Program-made: the position numbers and the translations under genes
The notes under the pieces: model-generated
The model's input: only the letters and a program-made list of their open reading frames with translations
Databases searched by the model: none
Told to the model about the DNA's origin: nothing
Assembly (NCBI GenBank): GCA_963855995.1
Contig: OY979718.1
Span: 2,317,501 to 2,381,500, forward strand
Direction of reading: 5' to 3'
Length of the DNA: 64,000 nt
Origin: Muricea muricata
Taxonomy: Eukaryota > Cnidaria > Anthozoa > Malacalcyonacea > Plexauridae
Part shown: piece by piece, positions 420-32,500 of the stretch
Numbering within the stretch: position 1 is the first letter of the stretch
How the letters are laid out: every line of letters starts with the position of its first letter

Positions 420-3209
420 GTTGGATAGGCTCAATGGTATTTATCCTAGGATTCATGTTGTCTCCTGTCGTGCTGTATATTTACAGACGTATTGGCTTTC
501 GCTGTTGTATGTTTATCTCGAGTGTATTGTATGGTTTTTCAATATGTGTCACACCGTTTATGACGAACCTAAACATCGTTTTCTTCACTTTTTCAATTCC
601 ATTTGGGATTGCGTTGAGTTTTGCGAATATATTATCGATTACAACTCAACGAGAATATTTTGATAAATATTTTGGTTTCGCTGTTGGTGTGCGTTTTTGT
701 GCCAACTCATTGGGTTCAGTTGTGCTATCGTTTATTTTACCAATAATTTTGGCTGCGCTTGGATATAAGATGACATTTCTGTCCATGTTAGTCATTGTTC
801 CAATAATTTTATTCTATGGTTTTGTCGCTCGTAATCACACCCATCAAGAGACAGGTGCAAGGGAACAAAGTGGAAAATCTGTGATTCTTCTTTACAAAGA
901 GATTTTACGAGACAAATCTTTTGCAACATGTTTGTCAGGATTGACGATTTTTTTCCTTGTTTGCTTTGCTCCATTGATATTTATGGTAGGTACCAATTAA
1001 ATTTTAGTATTATTATTATTGTTATTAAGCACCGTTGTCTTGGCGATTGCAGTGCCATTAGCCTCATTTTGCGGTTATCTGGAAAGTCAGAATATTGTAT
1101 AGGTTTGATTTCTGCCCATGAACCGCGTGTTTTCATGCGAGTTTTCATTGAATCAAGAGCGACACAATCGTAGCTAAACCTCGTAAACCTCGATATAAAG
1201 GTGTTTAAAGTATGCACTTGAATACCTCTCCTGTCTCAAATATTCTGGGCTGTTTTTTGATGTTAAGAAAGACAAACTACAGTGGAAAGGAACGCTATTA
1301 TCTTGTTTGAAATATTATGCCAATATCTTTGCACAATCGATTTCGGGGGTTTAATTAAGCGTGGCTTGTGGCAACTACCGTAACGTTTGTTGTTACAAAA
1401 ATTGCCAAATATGACCCATCACATATTAATCTAATTTTCTAATTCAAATTTTACCCCTTAGGTTCGTTATGGTGTAACGTTAGGTTATCCATTATCAAAA
1501 GCAAAATGGTTTTTGGTTATCAGAGGATTAACAACTTTTGTAGCAAGATTGCTCGCTGGTTCTATTGGTGATCTTGCTTTAAAACATGGCAAGGTGAAAA
1601 TACTCGTTCAAGTAACGTTTGGTTTGTATAGTATATTAAATTTTACGTGTTCATTTCTTCGTACATTTCCCTTGTTACTTCTTTATATGGCTTTAATTGG
1701 AATACTCGAGGGCGTGTGGTGGGTGATATATCCAGTCTTGGTTATGGAAATTACAGGAGGATATTCTTTCAATGAAGCTTTATCCTTGAGCAATTTTACT
1801 GGCGCTTGGGCGTGTCTTGTTGGTATTCCCTCGTCAGGTACTGTGCTGTTTTACAAATCCACTATGAGCGACCATGTTTTATCAGCAGATACAAACTGAT
1901 ACAAACTCGAGAGTCGTATATCTAATACAACCTACACGCGAATGTGAATAATATCTAATACAACCTGCACGCGAATGTGAATAATATCTATTATTATATA
2001 CTGAATGTCAAAGTTCATTTATTCCTGTTTCTTATTGGTTAAGAACGTATCACGTGATAGTGGAGAAATTCTACTGTCTCCCTGGCAACGTAGCTAAGCG
2101 GTGGACATTACTTTTATTCACCGGTAAATAACAAATCCACAGAGCCTCACGCAGCCATGTCAGGTAAAAGGTAATCCTTTTTACACATGTTTGATTGATT
2201 TGTGGTACTTTTCTTCTCTTTTGACACTCAGTATATAATAAAATACTTATTGACTGAGACCTCGGGAAAGCAGTATGTTTTGTGGACCCTCGACTGTCGA
2301 TGTTTCCCTCGGCTTCGCCTCGGGAAACATCGACAGTCTCTGGTCCACAAAACATACTGTTTCCCTCGGTCTCAGTCAATAAGTGTTAAATACAACCTAC
2401 ACGCGAATGGTGTGAATGTTTGCGAGACTGTCCAATTTTGTAGATCTATTTTACATCTTATTCATTAAGACTAGAAAATTTAAGTCTAATTTTATGTAAA
2501 TTAAAGAAATGTGTATCACATATACATACTACTTTAAATGTTTGTTGTCGTGAATTATTTGATAATTGAATTCAAAAATGTTTAATTATATCTAACTTTA
2601 AAGATAGAATAAAGTGTAACTGCGTTAATATAGACATATACCCGTTTCTTGTCATATACTTCAAGCTAAACCAATAATGATAAAATTGTGTATTGCCTTC
2701 CACTCACCAGCTACTGTCATTACGGCAGCCCGAGCCCTTGTGACACTCGGAGGCGGTTTGCCTCTGAGTGTCACAAGGGCTCGGGCTGCCGTAATGACAG
2801 TAGCTGGTGAGTGGAAGGCAATACACAATTTTATCATTATTGGTTTAGCTTGAAGTATATGACAAGAAACGGGTATATGTCTATATTAACGCAGTTACAC
2901 TTTATTCTATCTTTATCTATTTCACTGCGTACAATTTACTATTTTAAATATCTAACTTTGTTTTTCATTTCTGTAGGTTGGATTTTTGATGAAACTAATG
3001 ACTTTCGTTACGTATTTTACACTGTGTCGGGGTTGTCGTTGTTAGCAGCGTTCATACTGAATATAAGCTCGCGGATAAGAGTTGAGAAAGAATATTCACT
3101 GATACAAAAAAGTAAAGATGATACAGAAGATCTTGCATCTTGTGAAATAGCGGAATCTGAAAGTGGCACGATGTCTCAAACAAAGTTGGTGTACGAAACG
3201 ACAGTTTAA
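420..3209 (+). CDS. Monocarboxylate-transporter-like MFS protein, MCT-a (5' part missing)
   Basis: SLC16-type major-facilitator transporter; the family moves monocarboxylates or related small molecules across membranes. Exons seen: 420-985, 1462-1837 and 2977-3209 (stop included), joined in phases 0 and 1. The first exon, which should carry the start and the acidic-G-aromatic-W signature, must lie left of the window, because the exon at 420 begins in phase 1 after an AG. Visible marks are the loop RRIGFR, the second family signature around EYFDKYFGFAVG, and many hydrophobic segments. The 376-base middle exon is exactly as long as its counterpart in MCT-b (17224-20860), and wording such as RYGVTLGYPLSKAKW is nearly identical, so the two are paralogues. 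The last 40 or so residues are a polar cytosolic tail. Family sure; substrate unknown. Confidence 0.88.
1921..1986. repeat. Two tandem copies of a 33-base unit
   Basis: The unit contains ACAACCTACACGCGAATGTG and is repeated with one substitution, inside the MCT-a intron 1838-2976. A third partial copy lies near 2390-2412, just after the hairpin 2245-2384, so the whole stretch 1920-2412 may be one inserted element. Confidence 0.8.
2245..2384. repeat. 140-base inverted repeat (hairpin) in MCT-a intron
   Basis: The arms, about 68 bases each, read ACTTATTGACTGAGACC at the left and its complement GGTCTCAGTCAATAAGT at the right, with a handful of mismatches and almost no loop. It lies in the intron between exons 1462-1837 and 2977-3209. 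Confidence 0.9.
2599..2915. repeat. 317-base near-perfect inverted repeat in MCT-a intron
   Basis: The arms are about 155 bases each and almost identical, with a loop of only a few bases near 2757. A 12-base direct repeat, ATATCTAACTTT, lies at 2588-2599 and again at 2948-2959, which could be a duplication left by insertion. The right flank ends 17 bases before the exon at 2977, so the hairpin sits close to the branch point and acceptor. Confidence 0.93.
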
Positions 3210-3348
3210 AAGTGTTATTTCCCGTATTATGTATGTCTGTATGTAAAACTTTATTCAATAACGCTAGCCCCATCAGCAAATGCTGGTTTCCGTGGAGGGC
3301 GTCTCAACATATAATTATTTTCAAAATATCTACCTATTATTATAGTAT

Positions 3349-3354
3349 AATAAA
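3349..3354 (+). terminator. Possible poly(A) signal AATAAA after MCT-a
   Basis: An AATAAA hexamer lies 140 bases after the MCT-a stop. It is the first canonical one on this strand, but nothing else supports it. Confidence 0.4.
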
Positions 3355-3404
3355 TTAATCTGGTGTGACCCGTATGTTATTTATAAATGGGTGGACAGAA
3401 CTTG

Positions 3405-3470
3405 CTAATTTGGAAGACTGTTCCACAGTTTTCCCCCACTATAATTAAAACTTTTTTTGAGAAACTCCCT
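3405..3470 (-). mobile_element. LINE 3'-end fragment joined to gypsy integrase
   Basis: The last 20 or so residues of the ORF that ends at 3405 contain SGGKLWNSLPN, a motif I know from the end of non-LTR retrotransposon reverse transcriptases, not from gypsy integrases. It runs in frame from gypsy integrase sequence, so the reading frame is a chance fusion of two elements. Confidence 0.5.
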
Positions 3471-4461
3471 TTTTATAGTGTGTGGATGTTTGTTGTACGG
3501 TGAGGATAGTTTATTGACGAGTCTTTGACGAACAAGAACAGTGTCGCCAACTTTGAAGCTGTGTGGCCTTGCTTTGGCGGCGGTATCAGCATATTTCTTC
3601 ATCTTCTCCTTCTTTTTGAGATCGGTATCGGCGAATTGAGAGCGTGATGGTGACGTGGGGACTAGTTCGGGTAGCTTGACGTTCATTTTTCGTCCAAAGA
3701 GGAGCTCGGCAGGGGAAACGCCAGTGGTGGAATGTGGTGTCGCACGATAGTTTCGGAGAAAGAGAAACAGTTCTTGCTTCCAATTCTTGTTTTCAAGGTG
3801 TGCAGCGCGGAGCGTTTTTTGTATTGTTCGCATGAAACGTTCCGACTCCGAATTGGCTTTTGGCCACGCAGGAGTAATTTTTCGATGGTGGAAACCCATG
3901 TGCTGTGCGAATTGGGCAAACAAGTGACTTTGGAATGGTGGTTTATTGTCAGACTTGATTTCTGCCGGAATTCCATGCGTGGATAAAATGCGGTCAAGTT
4001 TCGGGATGACGGTGTTTGAACGTAGAAGGTAGAACGAACGATCTCAACCTCTGGATAGCGAGACTATTCGTCGATTACCACGAAGAGCATATCACCGGAG
4101 GGAAGAGGGCCACAGAAATCGATAGAGAGTTGTTGCCATGGAGCTGGGGGTAGCTCTGTCATACTTAGGGGTTCGAAAGGATGTTGAATGGTGGTGGCCT
4201 GGCAAGCAAGGCAATTGTCAAGCAATTTTTTCGTAAGACCATCAATTCCAGGAAACCAAATCTTTTCGCGGAGGAGCTATCATGGTCATCAGAAACACTC
4301 AGTTCGTCACGAATATTGCAGAGAGCATAAAGGTCTTGGGAGTTGACAAGGGTACCGGGTGTCTGTAGAGTGGAGTACCAGGAGTTGTTACGGAGAGCAG
4401 CGATAACAGCTTGCAGAGTCAGGTCAGCACGGGGGAATTGTTTCACTTCAGCAACGGTCAT
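3405..4461 (-). pseudogene. Gypsy-1 integrase region, frameshifted
   Basis: Pieces in different frames (4461-4165, then about 4250-3925, then 3923-3470) together cover the zinc-binding N-terminal part (NCLACQATT), the start of the catalytic core (QQLSIDFCGPLP) and the core's C-terminal half. The last piece reads PAWPKANSESERFMRTIQKT and NYRATPHSTTGVSPAELLFG. It inserts transposon cDNA into chromosomes when intact. Frame changes near 4250 and 3925 and an in-frame stop near 4070 make it non-functional. Confidence 0.85.
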
Positions 4462-4484
4462 AGCTTTTGGGGTGGTACGAAAGG

Positions 4485-5843
4485 CTAAGAACGCGATATA
4501 TTCTTAAGCTTGGTCGGATGCAGTGGAAGAATGGCTAGTAGCGAGAGGGTGGCGGGACAAATAATCCGCGGGGTTAGTTTTGCCAGGGGAATAGGAAATG
4601 GTGAAATGATATGGTTGAAGCTTGAGCGTTCTAACCGGGCATTGGAGCGAGCAGCAGGATTGGTAAAAATGCGTTCAAGAGGTTTATGATCGGTGATGAT
4701 GGTGAATTTGGCGCCATGGATGGAAATGTGGAAATGTTCGCAAGCAAACAGGACGCCGAGGGCTTCTCGTTCTGTTTGGGAATAATACCGCTGAAAAACG
4801 CTGGAAAATGTTGTGGTATAACGGCTTTCGGGTGCGAGTTCAAGTTTGTGGTAACCAGAATTCAAATCAATTTTAGAGAAAACGGTGGCACCGTTTAGAT
4901 CATGGATCAGGTCATCAATAGTGGGTGCAATATGACGTTCACAAAGAATCGCACGATTGGGTTGGCGCATGTGGACGCAGAGACGGATCTCATCAGGGTT
5001 CTTTGGTTTTGGTGTGACAACAAGGGGGGATACCCAAGGGGCTGGGCCATCAACCGGTTCAATAATACCCTGACGTTCAAGTTTGTCAAGTTCAGTGTCG
5101 AGCTTTTTCCGAAGGTGGAACGGGATTCGCCGATGTGGTTGCGTCACGGGGGGTACAGAAGGATCGATATGGTGATGAACTTGAAAATCCTTCATCTTGC
5201 CAATGCCGTCAAAAAGATCTGAACATTCAGAACGTAACTGCGTGCTGCTAAGTGCGGAAGGAACTGTGGTGGAGCTGACAGATGTGTCGGTTTGAGCGAT
5301 GACAGAGATAAGTTCTAATTCATTTGCAGTTTTGTAGCTTAAAAGGCACCCATTTTCACCTTTGAGGACATAAATGGTAGCGGGGGTTACGCGTGTTCTC
5401 GATGCAACATGAGTAGAAAACGTCCCTAGAACAGATAGAGGTGAAGTACCGCCATAACTGTAGATTTTGGTGAGGGTAGGACGCAATGAGAGCTGTTTAT
5501 TCTGTGGGGATTTCGTGATAGCGTGATAAGCTTTTTCATCAATTATATTAATGCTGGCGCCGGAATCAATCAACACTTGAAGTGGGACATTTGCAATAAC
5601 GACTTTGGCCTTGGGGGTGGTTTGATAATTAACCTGGGATATAGTTACTCGGAAAAGATACTCATCATGAGAGATAGGGCATTGTTCAGCATCGGTAACG
5701 TGATGAATCTCGCGTGGAGGGGGTTGACGTGGAAAAGAGTTAGTAGGGGGTGGTTTCAGACGCGATGGAGGACGGGGGGAGCGATTGTCAGCAAGCGGTG
5801 GTCGGATAGGTTTAGATCGACAACAGCGGGCGAAATGGTTCAT
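4485..5843 (-). pseudogene. Gypsy-1 protease / reverse transcriptase / RNase H ORF with internal deletion
   Basis: An open frame of about 452 codons. A zinc knuckle of CX2CX4HX4C form (CHSCGKMNHFARCC) overlaps its start. The protease active site LIDSGAS is at about residues 91-97. Reverse transcriptase begins at about 220 (FSKIDLNSGYHKLEL at 322-336). At about residue 346, near base 4805, it jumps directly into RNase H (YYSQTEREALGVLFACEHF, then TDHKPLERIF). The RT palm with its catalytic YxDD motif is missing although the frame stays open. After about residue 400 the frame no longer matches RNase H, which indicates another frameshift. Confidence 0.88.
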
Positions 5844-6002
5844 TTTTCCGCACGAATGACACTGGGAACCGTGCGCAGGACAGCTAGCTGGACCTCGAGG
5901 ATGAGGATAGGCATAACCGCAGTGTCCACACGTAGATGATGGCGCAGGAAACTCTCGAGATCGGGGAGGCGGAATAGAAGGCGATTGACGGAATTGAGAG
6001 CG

Positions 6003-6511
6003 CTAAAACGTACGAGTATAGTTTAAAAGTTCAGGTTCATTCGGGAAGGTAGACTGAGATTCAATACCAGAAGCCTGTTTTTCAGCCATTTCCATGGTAC
6101 GACCGAGATCAAGGAGTGCTTTGAGGGTTAAAGATGATTCACGAAGTGCGCGTCGACGAGGGTGAGACGAAGAACAGTTAAGGATTATCTGCGATTTGAT
6201 TTCTTTGTCCACAGAGTTAAACGCGCAAGTTGAGGCTAATTGACGCGGACATGTGGCGAATTGATCCAGCGTCTCATTCGGTTGTTGGCGAGCTTGACGA
6301 AAAAGGTATGTTTCGTAATCAACGTTGCGTTGTGGCGTAAAGTGCTCGGTTAGACGGCCCATTGCTGCCTTGACTCTTTTTCGTCACCGGTTTCACTTAA
6401 AGTCTCGAATATATCAAACGCTGACGAACCAATGTAGTGCAAAAGAAGTGCGCGTTTGCGAGTGTCGTCTTCGATGTTCATGGCAAGAAGAAAGTTTCCA
6501 GCTCGTTGGGT
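6003..6511 (-). pseudogene. Gypsy-1 gag, 5'-truncated and frameshifted
   Basis: Two overlapping frames resemble gypsy Gag capsid: NFLLAMNIEDDTRKRALLLH near 6500-6440, then VDYETYLFRQARQQPNETLD near 6330-6270. The frame changes at about 6360. Everything upstream of the NFLLAM block is replaced by a BEL/Pao LTR at 6512. Confidence 0.8.
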
Positions 6512-7648: not shown

Positions 7649-7966
7649 TCAGCAGCTGACACAAAGGTCTTTTGCATTGTCAGAATACACTTTGTTGGGT
7701 CTTCCTTTCCTAGCAATAAACTGCTTGAAACCTTTGGAAAACTTCGCGGTGTCTAGACTGGGGATCAACTCGAAATGTACCGCCCGCGTAAAAGACTGCA
7801 GCAATAGAGCAAAACGTATTCCTTCCCTTCGTCCTTTCGTCTCTTCACATACTTGATAGGGCCCGCAAAGTCTATACGTATCGCTTAATTTCAGCTGTTC
7901 GATCTTGTGGGAACACGCCTGGGGGTGGTTGTTGAACTGCGTTTGCTTGGAATCACCGGCAGCCAT
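7649..7966 (-). pseudogene. BEL/Pao integrase catalytic core fragment
   Basis: It contains FTRAVHFELIPSLDTAKF and a downstream VYSDNAKD, the conserved D-containing blocks of the BEL/Pao integrase core. The usual tryptophan-rich strand before it is scrambled, so it cannot be active. Confidence 0.8.
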
Positions 7967-8512
7967 AACACTTTTTGATAACCTTTTGAGTAAGTTGCCT
8001 CAGTCGAGGTAGCCCGTCTGACTTTAGCCGTGTTCATTCCCACCCCCCCCCCCCCACCCCCGTGCAGGGTTTGTAAATAGGAATCTTCTACCACCTTGGT
8101 CGTGAAGATATGCTTGTTTGGCAGTCATATTGGGTAATGGCGAGGGTAATGGCTTTGGATACGTCCTCTGCATTCCAAGACACCTTGAAGATATTCTTGC
8201 AGGTTAATTAAGACGCTCTTTTTCATCACCGTCATCCCAATCTCGTTGTACTCTCTTTTCTTTGAACGTGTACTGCTGCTCGATTTCTTCGGTCGTTAGT
8301 GGTCCGAAAATTCGGTTGTTAACAGGACGTCGTCATAGATTTCCCACGAACCTTGTGATCCACGAACATATTCTCAGAGCTTTCCGTTTTGCAAACTTCT
8401 CAAGGATGTAGTCGAAACCATCCGAGTTCTCTTGGGTCACTCTCATTATAGCTTTGATGATCTTGGCTTCTGCTTCACTTTCTTTCGTGGATTGGGTAAC
8501 AATATCATCAGG

Positions 8513-9107
8513 TTAACTACGGTTATCTTTGAGCCAATCAGGACCGTTTAAACACAGCTCGTTTCCTTTTACTTCTCCACCTCGATTTGCGACATCAGCA
8601 GGATTGCGATCAGTCGAAACATATCGCCACGCTATGCTGGGTTTGGACTGAATCTTTTTCACCCGGTTTGCAGCAAACTGTTTATGTTGTCCACCGTCCT
8701 TGATCCAGTGGAGCACCACTGTACTATCGAGCCAACCGAACGTGTCTTCAAGCATTTTGGAGCATTTCGTACGTTATCTAACAAGTTGCAGGCCATGTGC
8801 GCCGAGACCAGCTCCAAGCTTGGTATGGTCAAACCTTGTTTTGCGAGTCTCGCCTTGGCGGTTACGATACCTTGTGTTGTACCAGAGGGTTGGTTGACTG
8901 CAGCGTAGACAACAGCCGCCACGCCTTTGCCACTCGCATAGTCGCATCCCAGAATCCGTGCAACTGAATTGAATCGATATTTTCTTGGAACATTGGTATT
9001 AAACGCAGTACGGCCACTAGGTTTGGCCGTTGTTTCACCCAATTAATCAAACTTTTCTTTTGCTCTGTAGATAATGGAGCATCCCACGGTATCTTCTTTT
9101 GACACAC
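8513..9107 (-). pseudogene. BEL/Pao RT connection and RNase H fragment
   Basis: Overlapping frames 9107-8862, 9042-8659 and 8755-8513 give QKKIPWDAPLS, then a degenerate RNase H start, then KARLAKQGLTIPSLELVSAH and DSTVVLHWIKDGGQHKQFAA, ending in NPADVANRGGEV. These are the ordered blocks of Pao-type RNase H. Frame changes near 8900 and 8700 break it. Confidence 0.82.
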
Positions 9108-9320: not shown

Positions 9321-10231
<911 letters not shown>

Positions 10232-10386: not shown

Positions 10387-10417
10387 GACGTTTCGTCTTA
10401 ACTTAAGACATCTTCAG
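10387..10417 (-). ncRNA. Hammerhead-like ribozyme core in PLE-1 3' end (probably degenerate)
   Basis: On the minus strand: CTGAAGA, one extra base, then a seven-pair stem (GTCTTAA / TTAAGAC), then GAAACGTC. This is the CUGANGA - stem II - GAAA order of hammerhead ribozymes, known in Penelope-like elements. The extra base after CTGAAGA and the lack of a loop in stem III make self-cleavage doubtful. Confidence 0.45.
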
Positions 10418-10570: not shown

Positions 10571-11347
10571 TTAGAAGAGGTTAAGAGGAATAGAGTTGCC
10601 TTGAACGATTAAATTAGGTTTGTATTTATTAATGAGGAGACTCTCGTGTATCATTAATTCGTATGAGTCTGAGGAGGAAGAAAGAATTTGAAAGTCGTCA
10701 AAGCTAGCAGGGTGCCCAGAGGCGTTTATATGGGACAGAATACTAGACATAGCTGGGTTGGTTGAATGTTTTCCCGTGATTGGAGAGATACCCAGATGTT
10801 CAGATATCCTAGTGTGTAGATGGCGCGTGGTTTGACCCACATACGACGCGGAACAGCATCGACACTTGAATAAGTATACCACACTGGATCTCAAGTATTT
10901 GGGAACTTTATCCTTGAAGGGAAAAAAGGAAGAGATTCGTCTGGAAGAACGAAAGACGAATCTAATGTCAAGATGAGGAAAAGCAGCGTTGCAGAGTCGG
11001 TTGATTTGAGTGCGTATCTGTAGAGAATGTATCCCTGTGAATGGGAGGCAAAAATAGATTATTTTCTTAGAGGCGGTCAGAACAGGTGGTCTAGGATCAA
11101 AGGTGTGCTCGAGGAAGCGGCGAACAATGCGGTCGAACATGTGAGAGGGAAAACCATTCGAGTTAAATAACTTTCTGACAACTTCAAGCTGTGTATGAAA
11201 ATTTTCATAGCTAGAACAAAGGTTGAAAATGCGATGAATCAAACAAGAAACTAAGTTCTGTTTGTAGGCAAGAGGAATAAAACTGTTAAAGTTGGTGAAT
11301 AAACCAGTAAACGTAGGTTTGCGGTAAACAGATGTAGCGGTCCCCAT
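10571..11347 (-). CDS. RT C-terminus plus GIY-YIG endonuclease of a Penelope-like element
   Basis: An intact frame of 258 codons. It opens with TSVYRKPTFTGLF, the segment after the palm of Penelope-type reverse transcriptases. It continues through the thumb (about residues 20-80) and a basic linker, and ends in a GIY-YIG nuclease (about 165-258). The nuclease shows VVYLFKCRCCSASYVGQTTR with HLHTRISEHL after it, which has the conserved Y, YVG, R and E/H pattern. Such enzymes nick target DNA for retrotransposition. The first ATG may be internal because the frame begins at the truncation. Probably a fossil rather than an expressed gene, but undamaged over this length. Confidence 0.82.
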   Translation of the reverse strand: MGTATSVYRKPTFTGLFTNFNSFIPLAYKQNLVSCLIHRIFNLCSSYENFHTQLEVVRKLFNSNGFPSHMFDRIVRRFLEHTFDPRPPVLTASKKIIYFCLPFTGIHSLQIRTQINRLCNAAFPHLDIRFVFRSSRRISSFFPFKDKVPKYLRSSVVYLFKCRCCSASYVGQTTRHLHTRISEHLGISPITGKHSTNPAMSSILSHINASGHPASFDDFQILSSSSDSYELMIHESLLINKYKPNLIVQGNSIPLNLF

Positions 11348-11359
11348 GTTGGACCTTGC

Positions 11360-11487
11360 CCAAGGGGTAGTAGCTCCCCGAGATGGGCACTCTAAATGTC
11401 CAAGGGGTAGTAGATCCCCGTGATGGTCATTGTTTACTCAAATGTCCAAGGGGTAGTAGATCCCCGTGATGGTCATTGTTTACTTTA
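11360..11487. repeat. Three tandem units of about 40-46 bases
   Basis: Each unit begins CCAAGGGGTAGTAG and contains TCCCCG and GATGG. Units start at 11360, 11400 and 11446. The array abuts the truncated start of PLE-1. Confidence 0.85.
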
Positions 11488-14473: not shown

Positions 14474-15156
14474 TAGACCACAGGGTGAGATTTATCAATG
14501 GCCTAGAAGTAAGGAATTCGTTCCGTAATCACGAAACTACATAAAACTCTGTCATTTGGTGGTAAAACGTATATCAAGGAGAAATACACAAAGTTGTACT
14601 GAGAATTAAATCCTTTCCAAAACAGTCAAATTCATTGTTTTTTCTCGATTTTCCTTTAAATCCTTTTTACAGCTTAAAAGTGCAAAATTTTAAACTTGGT
14701 TTAAACAAAAATGACCATGCAACATCACTAGAAAAGTTACAAAAAACTACTTATAAGACATTTGAATAGTTACCCTGATTTTTAATATGATTATTGAGTT
14801 ATTGTTGCTCCAAATGTTAAAAATATGTCAAAGTCCCGCTAAAAAGACTGGGTGCTAGACCAAAAACACGTTTCAACAGCTCAAAACTTTTAAAGACCTT
14901 AAAATCATTGTAGCCATTTTAATTTTCTGTATGTAGTTTTTTGTAAACTTTCTAATGATGCAGGTTATTTAACTGATAGTAGTTTTAGTAGGAAATTTGG
15001 AGAAAACCCTAATGTTTTAACATTTTGCAAAGAAATTTTTAAAACAAGTATTTGATTTTATATTAATAATACTATAACCTTACATATTTCAGCAGTTCAG
15101 AAAGTTTCGTTTTATAGGAACGAAACTGAAAAATAGGAATTTCACCCTGTGGTCTA
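14474..15156. mobile_element. Non-autonomous DNA transposon, 683 bases
   Basis: The ends are perfect 15-base inverted repeats, TAGACCACAGGGTGA and TCACCCTGTGGTCTA, extending to 19 with one mismatch. If the outer TA is the duplicated target, the element is Tc/mariner-like. No coding capacity. Confidence 0.72.
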
Positions 15157-15277
15157 AACCGGTTTGCGTGCCTTTCACATCCTTGTTAATATTTTACCCG
15201 AATCAAAAATATTACTTTGTCTTAAATTCTTAGAAAGATCAAAATTAAAGTCGACGAGTTAATGCTGGTAGTAGAAC

Positions 15278-15363
15278 GAATAGGAGTGCAATTAATGCCA
15301 AAATCATTATTTGTTTATAATCACGAGTATGATTTGGCATTAATTGCACGACTTGATTCGTTT
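15278..15363. repeat. Inverted repeat, about 86 bases
   Basis: The arms GTGCAATTAATGCCAAA and TTTGGCATTAATTGCAC lie about 30 bases apart. No function seen. Confidence 0.8.
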
Positions 15364-15492
15364 TGTATTTCGCAAACCAGTATTTCGAAACGTTAACATA
15401 AGAGCGCTCAATACTGTTTTAGTAGTGAGTGTCCCACATCTCTCTTGTTGTCATTTGTAGTATATATACTTTCTGATGCAAGGACTCACTAT

Positions 15493-15548
15493 CAGCTACA
15501 CTGTGCTGACGAGTCCCAATAAGGGCGAAACAGCGTCTGCAGTTGCTG
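15493..15548 (+). ncRNA. Type I hammerhead ribozyme
   Basis: Self-cleaving RNA motif. The core CTGACGA is at 15506-15512. Stem II is GTCCC-AATAA-GGGC, followed by GAAA at 15527-15530. A two-pair stem III with an AGC loop leads to GTC, so cleavage is predicted after C15537. Stem I pairs ACTGTG (15500-15505) with TGCAGT (15538-15543), two of the pairs being G-T, and continues after an internal loop with CAGC/GCTG. Stem II has one unpaired base. It lies just beyond a Penelope-like GIY-YIG remnant (15581-15960) but on the opposite strand. Hammerheads are known in the terminal repeats of Penelope-like elements and in retrozymes. Confidence 0.78.
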
Positions 15549-15580
15549 GTGTGAGTTCGGGCACTCATATGTCTCATTCT

Positions 15581-15960
15581 CTATGGGCCAATCGCTGATA
15601 AAAAACTGCGACATGCAGTATATATATTGCTGACGTGCTTTACTGTTCGCGCGTACTTCGCAAATATCTCAGATCTCCTATTCAGCAGACTGTTTTTATT
15701 ACTCAGCATTATTTGAAGCCTCTCTTGGATACTGCCAGGACTTCTCATGGTAGTTTTTGTGCCTATCTTTAAATTCATTCGACGTCATACCGATGTATTC
15801 TTTGATACTGCCATCATCAACCGAACTATAACTTCAGCTTTATACATGTACACGATACTTTTGGATGGACAGTGGCCATCCAGAGGGCACTCGATTCTTT
15901 GTCTACAATTGCAGTTTTTTGAGGGCAATGTAGTCCTTGGCTTGTTTAAAACATGCTGAT
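15581..15960 (-). pseudogene. GIY-YIG endonuclease remnant of a second Penelope-like element (PLE-2)
   Basis: On the minus strand, CPLDGHCPSKSIVYMYKAEV is followed in another frame by DGSIKEYIGMTSNEFKDRHK and in a third by SLLNRRSEIFAK. This is the order seen at the end of Penelope-like proteins that carry a CPLDG-type finger in the nuclease. The part between the nuclease core and the LLNRRSEI block is mostly deleted. Clearly dead. Confidence 0.75.
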
Positions 15961-16404
15961 CGCGGAATGATATAGTGCTCTTTACATTAGGCTTACAGCT
16001 GTAGCTTACTTTAACTATGCTTTAACTGTGTTTCGGTTGAACAGTTTATGCAATGGACTAGATTTCGGGAAGTGTTTGTCAAGGAGTTGAACAAAATTAC
16101 GAGTTAAAAAAAATCATGGTATTAATTAGCCTTATTAAAAATTAGATTTTTATTGCAATTAATGGAAAGCAGTGAGTGTATGGATAAGACAAAGCATTTG
16201 ATATGTGTTTACATACTTTTTTTAGGCTACAGCTGTTTAGTTCATTTAGGAGTCGGTTAATCCTTAGATTTATCTCAGTCACTCTCTGATGGTCACCGTG
16301 AAGAAATGTAGATTAAACTTGTGAGAAAATCTCGAAAAATTAATCTTGACGCTTTTCAAATCGATGGATACTTCAAAGAAGTCAGATAATTTAAATTGCC
16401 TATA
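15961..16404. other. No gene recognised
   Basis: AT-rich spacer between the PLE-2 remnant and the next repeat. Nothing further is visible. Confidence 0.5.
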
Positions 16405-16922
16405 TAGGTAATAGCACGAGTTAGTTTTTCAATGACGCCAATATTGCAATTTGGCGTCATTGAAAAACTCACTAGTGCATGTTATTTCAAATTTGCACGA
16501 GAAAACATGCTATTACTTGTCAATAATATAAAAGAAAAACGAGAATACACGCAATTCGAAACAAGAATACACGCGACACAACTGTACTTACATCGCGATC
16601 GCTCCCCTTCACTTTTTCCTTAAAACTTTTAATTTACGCCCATAACGTCGTGATAAATACGTGTAGAGTTCGTTAAAACCCAGCCAAATTTGACCGCAAT
16701 CGCTCTCAAATTTCACCCGCCACGTTTGTTTTTTTTTGTTAAGAAAATTTGAGCTCCCGTTTTCCTGCGTCAAATTTGATTGGTTCTTCTGTTGTTACAG
16801 ATTTTTGCACCGTTGTTACAGATTTTTGCACCGTTGTTACAGATTTTTGCACTCCTATTCGGCATTAACTGTACTGAAATTGACCAGTCACAGTCCAGAT
16901 ACCATTCCTTGTATATTATTAA
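16405..16922. mobile_element. Non-autonomous repeat family X, copy 1
   Basis: A head hairpin of about 110 bases (TTTTTCAATGACGCCAA / TTGGCGTCATTGAAAAA) begins TAGGTAATAGCACGAG. It is followed by a tail with three tandem TTACAGATTTTTGCACC units at 16796-16852 and an end reading CCTTGTATATTATTA. A second copy with the same plan lies at 30263-30880 in a TMEM63-A intron. Confidence 0.75.
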
Positions 16923-29577: not shown

Positions 29578-32500
29578 ATGTTCTTTGAAGATCTAACTCA
29601 TAAACTTGTCGGCAATATCTCCACAATTTCCACAAACAATGGGACAGATGAAGGGAAAGCGCCACCGATCACGGGAAAAGCATTGGCTGTAACATCTGTA
29701 ACAAATGGATTTTTCCTGCTTTTGACGCTCGTATTATTCTCCCTTCTCCGTCACAAGTTCCCACGAGTTTATACGCCGCGGCTTCTTCTCAATGAGCTGG
29801 ACTATTCTATTATTAAACTACCAAATAATTTATTAGGGTGGATTGTGCCAGCGCTCAGATTAAAAGATGAACAAATATTGCGGTATTTGGGTCTTGATGC
29901 TTTGATGTTCTTGCGATTATTACGCATGTGTTTTATGTTTGGCCTCATAATTTTACCTTACGGATTGATTGTTACTGTACCTCTAAACTATGAAGGAGGG
30001 AATTCTGAAAACGACCCTGACATTGACACTTTAAACCGTTTAACACTGGGAAATGTTGAAGCCAAGTCAGACTTTTTATGGGCTCATTTCATTGGCGTTT
30101 GGATGTACACCATCGTTATATTGTACTTCATGCATCGTGAGTACGTTGCATATCAAAGGTTTCGTCAGCAATGTTTTTGTAATGGAGAGAAATATCATCA
30201 TCGGTATCTTGTAATGTTACAAGATATTCCAAAAGAGGTAAGGTAGCATTGGGATATTAGTATAGGTAATAGTATAATTTCGAGTGCAATTACGGATAAA
30301 CAAGCACGAGTGAGTTTTTAAAAACTGCAAAATAGCGCGAGTCCGTAGGACGAGCGCTATTTGCGGTTTTTAAAAACTCACGAGTGCTTGTTTTCCGTAA
30401 TTGCACGAGAAATTATGCTATTACTTATTAATAATATAAAAAGGAAATGTTTAAACAAGCATTTTGTACTTACAACTTCGCATTATGCAGGTGCACTCAT
30501 TCTCGAATTTCTTCGCTTAAACAATCCATGTTTATAAAAGCCATGGCTAAAAATTTTATGTACAAAGTTCCAGCATACTTTAGAGTTTGTTTTGTGATCA
30601 TAATTGTCAGAGAAGAATCCCAAATTGTGTTGAAATTTCGACGAAATCTTTAAGCAAACGTGAAAATTCGGCCGCCATATTTTTGGTTTTTCTGCGAGTA
30701 AATCCCATCGCTCAAAGAGTTTATTACAGATTTTTGCACTGTTGTTACAGATTTTTGCACTGTTGTTACAGATTTTTGCACTGTGTTACAGATTTTTGCA
30801 CTGTTCTGGGTGATGTTTGGGATTAACTGCACTCGAATCAACCAATCACAGCCCAGAAACATTTCCTTGTATATTATTAGATTATTAATAAATGATAGGC
30901 ATGAGCGATTACTGAATTAGTCATCTGTACAATAATGACAGCTATTCCCGCTCCAGTGATTCTTTAATTTTCATGTTATAGTATTTAAAATTTCATCGGC
31001 AAGCTTCCATGTAGTGGGGAAATGGGAAAGATGATGTATCTGGATTGTTCATGCAACTAAACATGTTTGAAGTATTTAGAACAAAAACATGGAGCACCTT
31101 AATGCTCCAGTAACCATCAAGTGCTCTAGTAATTCCATCAATTTGATCAACTATGAATTAGATAACGCAGATAGCCAGGTCTGTCAAACTGTGAAAGAAT
31201 GATTTCTGTAGATTAAGTATTGAGCTAGATCACTCCAAAGTTCAATTACCTTTTTCTAATCCCTGTATAATGTAAGATCCTTGTTACTTTAAAGATAGAC
31301 TAGCAAGGAACTGTTGATTTTGTATGAAACTAGGATTATACTATACATTAATTTAAGGACTTGGTGATATGGTTGGATTTTTGAAAGCATCACATAACCA
31401 AGGGAGTAAAAAGCTGGATAATTGCATAAAGGCATGTCCATACATCTGTGTTTGCATACTGCACAAACAATGGTGCAGAATATGCTCCCTCCCAATAATT
31501 GATTTTTACACCCTTGCATGTAAGACCACAACCAAGGTTTCAGATCAAAAGGTTTGCTATAATAAATTTACATGGTTTCTAAACCATGACCAATCAACTC
31601 TTTTTTACTCTTTTACTGTCAAAGTTGTTACCGGTATAACTTACTCTAACAATTGCATACCTAACTCAACATGTGTTCTCACTTTCATGTATATATCACC
31701 TGTTTGCAGGCCTACACAGGGAGTACATCAACAGTTATTACACTTGATCCTCCCCTTTAATCTATGCCTGTTTGTGATTAATTAAATAAAGTAATATCCC
31801 AGTCCTTAAATACAAGAGTTTCAAATGATTATTTCATGATCTATACTGATCAAGTTCCTTAGTTTATAATCCTGAAGGTGTTGTGGAACACGACACTCTC
31901 GGGCTGGTAGTTGTCTTCGAGCCTGACCATCTTCAACTGGTGAAATCAGACCTGGTTGTTCGAGTTGATCCACATTGGCTTGGTAAAGAGGCCTCTTCAA
32001 AAGAGGGCATCACTCTCAATTTTTCATTGGCGGCTTGAGAAGTTTTTTCATTTCATTACCTCAAGTCATGTGGGTGTATGCATCTATACACTGAGTCGTT
32101 CTAACTTCTGTTTGTGAGGCGCTTTCATAACATAGGGCACTAGGCATACCTTCGCAGACTTAGGCAGAGCCCCTTCTTTTAAATAGATTTTTGCTTTCGT
32201 ATGTCTCGATAATCCTAGATATTTTGCAAAAACTTCTTTGTGGGCATCCAGAAGGTTCTGTGCAGTTTGTCCACATAAAACATTGAGTCCCAGTTCAATT
32301 TTATGGCTTTCAAACAATTGCGATTAAACAGACAGGGAAATTTGCTTCTAACCACTAAAGCTGGCAAGTGTAAAAGATATAACATTGCATCTAATTTTTA
32401 CAAATTCTTAAATATCATCCAGCTATTAGCCTAAATAGTTTTTAGAAGGTTGAAAAAAACATGTAGAAAATGTATTCGACTCTATGACCATTTCCATTTA

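Follow-up and report, generated by a model that had tools for sequence, protein, structure and literature searches.

A type I hammerhead ribozyme on the strand opposite the decayed tail of a putative Penelope-like element in Muricea muricata

Hammerhead ribozymes share a core numbered C3UGANGA9 / G12AA14-A15.1 / U16.1-H17, and retrozymes are small non-autonomous elements spread through hammerhead-cut circular RNA. A link between animal hammerheads and Penelope-like elements (PLEs) has been in print since 2014 (as cited in PMC7761336). The consulted sections of PMC7761336 describe the PLE hammerheads as minimal, lacking helix III and loop contacts, call their role still a mystery and treat a connection between PLEs and retrozymes as likely but unproven. 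In the Penelope pseudo-LTR Pen2a of Adineta vaga, TATATATA is followed after 20 bp by the initiator-like TCACT; inverted pseudo-LTRs are an established arrangement of PLEs, and solo copies are known, according to the consulted part of the same article (PMC3846280), from which the word "hammerhead" is absent. In the Poseidon element PAc of Anolis, an assay with the ORF/pseudo-LTR junction as target found the ATT site just downstream to be cut most often (PMC11167929, sections consulted). The hammerhead of the one purified PLE system is described there as protein-assisted and dispensable for insertion in vitro.

Here we analysed 64,000 nucleotides of Muricea muricata (contig OY979718.1, positions 2,317,501 to 2,381,500; hereafter the window), together with a sample of 285,200 bases (of which 1,000 overlapping and 200 N) from 30 loci drawn from two contigs of 124 and 72 Mb, a small part of the genome. 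The window carries on its + strand, at 15482-15558, a hammerhead with a full core that both sequence and structure assign to type I. The site is a well-formed case of something known already, a further animal hammerhead in the vicinity of a PLE-like element. No antisense hammerhead at a PLE tail appears in the consulted portions of the literature surveyed, from which we claim no novelty.

Compared with the Pen2a pseudo-LTR, the locus has the same TATATATA and TCACT in the same order, 17 nt apart instead of 20 bp, but in one copy, with no + strand ORF of its own seen, and at the tail of its neighbour rather than in the usual head-to-head place (PMC3846280, in part). PAc, a Penelope/Poseidon PLE, offers a parallel in that its hammerhead lies where pseudo-LTR and ORF meet; its ORF begins at hammerhead helix II on the same strand, whereas here the sole recognised ORF runs on the opposite strand and no start codon occurs in helix II (PMC11167929, sections consulted). 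A canonical-looking type I hammerhead in low-GC DNA is shared with the metazoan non-LTR retrozymes as described in the consulted part of PMC7229834; unlike them, the locus showed no 150-450 bp tandem repeat and has promoter-like elements. Set against the minimal PLE form (PMC7761336, in part), its helix III has 2 bp and a triloop and its long helix I contains an internal loop, whereas the motif of another PLE-like element in the window, PLE#1, has no helix III loop.

Three helices surround the core, and the ends open on helix I, whose 5' side (15482-15505; 8 + 6 + 6 paired bases) and 3' side (15538-15558) form 20 bp in three segments (15482-15489/15551-15558, 15491-15496/15545-15550 and 15500-15505/15538-15543). 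Read outward from the core, these comprise 6 bp, an internal loop of UAC (15497-15499) opposite U15544, 6 bp, a single-U bulge (U15490) and 8 bp. The core segment CUGACGA (C3 to A9; 15506-15512) leads into helix II (15513-15526), 4 bp of GUCC/GGGC (15513-15516/15523-15526) closed by the loop CAAUAA, and is followed by GAAA (G12 to A15.1; 15527-15530). Helix III (15530-15536) is weak, with 2 bp (A-U and C-G, 15530-31/15535-36) around the triloop AGC; U16.1 is 15536 and C17 is 15537. The preliminary description, made before this analysis, had described the core bases of a type I hammerhead as all present and in order, which the numbering bears out (CTGACGA, GAAA, 15536 and 15537). It had also recognised stems I, II and III; these exist, but the extent of 15493-15548 given for the motif is too narrow, as the helix I pairs reach 15482-15558. 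Its predicted self-cleavage after 15537 coincides with the position that we take, from the established hammerhead numbering, to be the cut after C17.

At the gathering threshold, Rfam gave no match in the 64-kb window. When an E-value threshold was used instead, RF02275 (Hammerhead_HH9, clan CL00010) came out as the best hammerhead model; it spans 15487-15560 with all of its positions (1-77 of 77) and scores 27.3 bits, below its gathering score of 52, a curators' annotation cut-off that lies outside the structural definition of a hammerhead; the E-value is 1e-4 when 501 bases are searched and 0.013 for the whole window. The covariance-model check proposed in the preliminary description thus yielded an end-to-end match, though one under the gathering score. 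The core is identical to that of the model except at the variable position 7, and both have a 6-bp inner helix I with UAC on the 5' side and a 6-nt loop II starting with CAA; the helix III loop has 3 bases here and 7 in the model, and a PLE-like neighbour distinguishes the present site. This match is one of nine Rfam matches with E up to 1 in the whole window; seven of the remaining ones come from microRNA models, and a pair of these has lower E-values. The covariance score alone is therefore not decisive, and it is the descriptor scans that decide.

A relaxed hammerhead descriptor matched the window at this site alone, against two matches in 300 dinucleotide shuffles, and a strict one, which demands that helix I continue beyond an internal loop, likewise matched here alone, against two in 600 shuffles, a chance rate of about 1 per 19 Mb of shuffled sequence (64-kb shuffles). 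The consensus-like 26-mer of core and helix II, with up to 3 mismatches, had a single match in the window and a mean of 0.00 in 100 shuffles. A chance hammerhead-like sequence without ribozyme history would fit the Rfam score below the gathering threshold and the two strict matches still obtained from 600 shuffles of 64 kb; we consider it very improbable, given that the string of core and helix II went unmatched in 100 shuffles, that the covariance E-value is 1e-4 in 501 bases and that the motif lies 22 nt from the stop codon of an element. Elsewhere, viral contigs gave no match for two hammerhead patterns and no confirmed relative of PLE#1, and the sole pattern match among genome contigs, in a CPR bacterium contig, corresponds to a weak RF00163 score (19.9 bits of 34) and was taken as unrelated.

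The hammerhead fold is not the minimum free energy (MFE) fold, the two having -24.5 and -35.0 kcal/mol, respectively; none of 200 shuffles folded as well as the MFE structure. The latter retains helix II and, of helix I, the outer and middle segments, but pairs GCUG of the core with CAGC of helix III. Because this competing fold buries the core, cleavage of the monomer would be expected to be slow, and dimerisation would probably help only in part, since ACAGCGU of helix III is not self-complementary in its centre. Among the hammerheads reported in the consulted part of PMC7229834, HHR_Amex1 of axolotl, with a helix III of 1 bp, was 6% cleaved in an hour as a monomer, HHR_Amex2, with 2 bp and a tetraloop and called similar to the invertebrate ones, was 22% cleaved, and invertebrate retrozymes cleaved efficiently. 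Such comparisons of helix III cut both ways for the predicted cleavage at 15537.

On the - strand next to the ribozyme, at 15581-16107, lies a 5'-truncated and frameshifted PLE-like C-terminus, PLE#2, delimited from reading frames, tblastn and a tail alignment. Its pieces occupy several frames (16107-16018, 16012-15968, 15955-15824, 15818-15702, then 15688 to the stop at 15583-15581), and the connection from the YIG piece to the C-terminal tail, part of an endonuclease-like region, is missing. Two related elements from the sampled loci served for comparison. PLE-b, in locus L023 and with a complete C-terminus, matches window positions 16006-15848 and 15797-15720 (tblastn, E 1.7e-10), and the tail of PLE-a aligns with 15688-15611 of PLE#2 better than any of 500 shuffles, the one strong result among 6 frame-by-target comparisons. 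As the C-terminal frame ends at the stop 15583-15581, PLE#2 reaches its ORF end; judged by these alignments, it is the true end of an element that recurs in this genome in copies less decayed than PLE#2. The preliminary description had placed the motif 33 bases past the end of the remnant, which agrees with the 33 positions between 15548 and 15581; from the outer edge of helix I, the stop codon is 22 nt away, on the opposite strand.

That description had further called the ribozyme antisense to a Penelope-like remnant, and here the opposite strand and the true element end hold, while the name is less well backed. We presume the family to be Penelope-like from the C-terminal signatures CxC...CPLxGxC, Y(I/V)GxT and CNLC. 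Pfam and PDB searches with PLE#2 returned no match of note, and PLE-b matched no family in Pfam or NCBIfam and no PDB chain, its one PHROG match (E 0.27) being meaningless. PLE-b and PLE#1 were not significantly similar by BLASTP; hhalign aligned the GIY-YIG positions of PLE-a/PLE-b with those of PLE#1 at E 0.0098, with a probability of only 4.2%. Because Pfam, NCBIfam and PDB gave nothing of note, the name rests on these signatures and the weak GIY-YIG similarity.

We also rejected a location of the ribozyme inside the PLE coding end, an idea prompted by a - frame open across the hammerhead: the tail aligned with PLE-a ends at its stop codon (15583-15581) without reaching the motif. With a motif opposite a PLE-like ORF, and an intact core beside a broken ORF, one might think of an antisense ribozyme that regulates or destroys in trans, or that cuts transcripts running antisense into the PLE; for one isolated site next to a dead element no such function has to be invoked, and we find it hardly credible.

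The surroundings contain other repeats. A foldback element at 14474-15156 has 19-nt inverted ends (14474-14492/15138-15156, 94.7% identity) and inner arms at 14723-14782/14901-14960 (77%), and two small palindromic elements (15275-15362 and 16414-16478) flank the block of PLE and hammerhead. The lowest Rfam E-value in the window (9.2e-5) belongs to the microRNA model MIR7996 at 30272-30420, far below its gathering score; this stretch has the look of a palindromic repeat and is in part similar to 16460-16533 (84%). A broken retroelement pol lies at 3405-6383 (-), where Pfam recognises reverse transcriptase, RNase H and, weakly, an aspartic protease in the ORF at 4485-6002. Animal-like genes split by introns, together with the assortment of retroelements, point to an animal genome.

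PLE#1, the comparison element within the window, is an ORF on the - strand (10571-11437) with a GIY-YIG-like C-terminus that scores 20.1 bits against PF01541, just below the cut-off of 22.6 (E 8e-4). After this ORF and on its own strand (-), pattern scans found at 10387-10417 a minimal motif without a helix III loop (CUGAAGA, a stem, GAAAC-GUC, with UUGU/ACAA as helix I), the only one of its type in the window and without counterpart in 600 shuffles; we call it hammerhead-like because Rfam gives no hammerhead match for it. A motif CUGAAGA...GAAAC also follows the ORF, on the ORF strand, in PLE-a and in both copies of PLE-b, where helix I is not clear and the motif is weaker than that of PLE#1. 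PLE-b (L023:623-2804) consists of two 5'-truncated copies placed head to head, with arms at 623-819/2608-2804 and 825-1472/1959-2606 that are 98% complementary and a hammerhead-like motif after each copy's own ORF, at L023 663 (-) and 2764 (+). A further PLE end, in L031, showed no motif by eye and no CTGANGA core on the ORF strand at 7900-9000. As the preliminary description had stated, hammerheads of PLEs are normally read with the ORF: all four other motifs (PLE#1, PLE-a and both arms of PLE-b) are on the ORF strand, which makes the + strand hammerhead of the window an exception.

Near 3' ends of these elements we also observed (TA)n runs, which lie within a few hundred bases in four of six PLE-like ends (window 10101-10226; L023 about 3200-3500 and 2919-3000; L031 about 8500-8600), as if the elements inserted into or seeded TA repeats; PLE#2 has no such run, and the six include the other arm of PLE-b, read only a short way. 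A loose core match at L007 6191 in the sample looks like chance.

Upstream of the hammerhead and on its strand, pattern scans and the published Pen2a layout identify a TATA-box-like TATATATA at 15461-15468 and, 17 nt after it, the initiator-like TCACT at 15486-15490, a putative transcription start that overlaps the outer 5' arm of helix I at the 5' edge of the hammerhead. A promoter-like pair of the kind expected upstream of a pseudo-LTR hammerhead is thus present on the same strand, the expectation being drawn from one published example. The pattern TATATATA-N14-23-TCACT matches once in the window (15461-15490), against a shuffle mean of 0.03 with 3 of 100 shuffles having a match, and six times in the 349,200 bases of window plus sample, both strands. 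TATATA starts 45 nt upstream of the core here, 38 nt upstream in PLE#1 and 47 nt in both arms of PLE-b, and no TATATA occurs within 90 nt before the motif of PLE-a; a start 30-55 nt upstream was seen in 513 of 20000 random draws. These figures flatter the pseudo-LTR reading, because the test was chosen after the site was known and after the published layout had been read.

The preliminary description had left two readings side by side, an inverted terminal repeat and a separate retrozyme. The former comes closer, because the TATA/initiator pair on the ribozyme strand resembles that of a published Penelope pseudo-LTR, although no opposite copy was found in the window. We infer, with a probability of about 0.55, that what lies on the + strand is a module of a PLE pseudo-LTR, made up of promoter and hammerhead, and that it abuts, in reverse, the 3' end of a - strand PLE which is decayed and truncated at its 5' end; it is the layout of TATATA/TATATATA and TCACT that tips the balance. 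The candidate module lies immediately beside PLE#2, on the other strand, a neighbour that belongs to a family probably of PLE type by its sequence signatures. Inverted copies do occur in this genome, as the two copies in L023 demonstrate, but these stand head to head with each motif on the strand of its own ORF, whereas the present module is at its neighbour's tail. Against the pseudo-LTR reading also stand PLE-a, the best tail match to PLE#2, without its TATATA, PLE-b, the reference copy, without a match in Pfam, NCBIfam or PDB, the departure of this ribozyme from the minimal PLE form, and the core-burying MFE fold.

DNA alignments weigh against it too: judged by genomic controls, no alignment between this region and the 3' regions of other PLEs is significant. 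With PLE-a, a shared 3' sequence looked good by eye but was equalled in 337 of 1998 random windows from the genome and in 401 of 2000 shuffles. For the two arms of PLE-b and the 3' region of PLE#1, random stretches were as good in 92 of 500, 431 of 500 and 205 of 498 cases; against mononucleotide shuffles, the similarities to PLE-b and PLE#1 had looked better (2 and 17 of 200 as good).

Further copies were sought at several scales. Neither blastn nor the 26-mer pattern with 3 mismatches found a second copy in the window, and no second module was seen there or in the 285 kb sample, so that no inverted repeat came to light. Local alignment over 15 kb on either side gave direct and inverted scores of 18-20, at or below the shuffle medians of 20-21, which does not support an inverted terminal repeat within the window. 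A tandem dimer, considered from a 400-nt flank-to-flank alignment, scored 25 in direct orientation against a shuffle median of 19 and a maximum of 29 in 100, weak at most. In the sampled genome, the hammerhead descriptor had no match in the 30 loci, and blastn of 15161-15700 returned nothing beyond a 19-mer (E 0.15). Tandem copies, for which the preliminary description had suggested a search, were therefore found neither in the window, including 15 kb on either side of the motif, nor among the 285 kb sampled.

These searches bear on the main rival, in which one remaining non-LTR retrozyme unit had inserted next to the PLE, perhaps with the help of the PLE machinery. The form of the ribozyme speaks for it, being nearer to the canonical type I than to the minimal PLE form (long helix I with internal loop, CAAUAA loop II, some helix III). 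The 2-bp helix III recurs in axolotl HHR_Amex2, and PLEs and retrozymes co-occur in animals, where PLEs have been proposed to move retrozymes (PMC7229834, consulted part). Yet no tandem or second copy was found within 15 kb on either side or in the 285 kb sample, tandem repeats of 150-450 bp with a hammerhead, as expected of a retrozyme, were not found in the window, and metazoan retrozymes are said in the consulted sections of PMC7761336 not to seem to harbour promoters, whereas a TATA/initiator pair is found here. A lone decayed unit may be compatible with the absence of tandem repeats, and we regard the retrozyme as a serious but rather unlikely origin.

If the site is instead a pseudo-LTR module, the TATA box (15461) and the initiator (15486) would start an RNA with the hammerhead at its 5' end; a start inside TCACT would cost the outermost few pairs of helix I and keep the remainder. 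Cleavage after 15537 would then leave a 5'-OH on the downstream RNA and, in an intact element with tandem copies, the cuts would separate units or trim the leader. The inverted joint could have arisen from a second insertion near the ORF/pseudo-LTR junction or, alternatively, through strand switching during reverse transcription. Visual inspection of the three + frames of 15400-15650 revealed no PLE-like reading; because no PLE ORF is recognised downstream on its own strand, the present copy would be a relic, which may still be able to cut.

A bolder idea, which we hold to be quite unlikely, is that a retrozyme-like canonical hammerhead within a PLE-type promoter module, fused in reverse to a PLE tail, would be a physical link between PLEs and retrozymes, produced by a template switch of PLE reverse transcriptase or representing a PLE family whose pseudo-LTR carries a full ribozyme that gives rise to retrozymes. 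With minimal motifs and a full-form hammerhead under a PLE-like TATA/initiator pair, this one genome offers a test case for a shared origin of both kinds.
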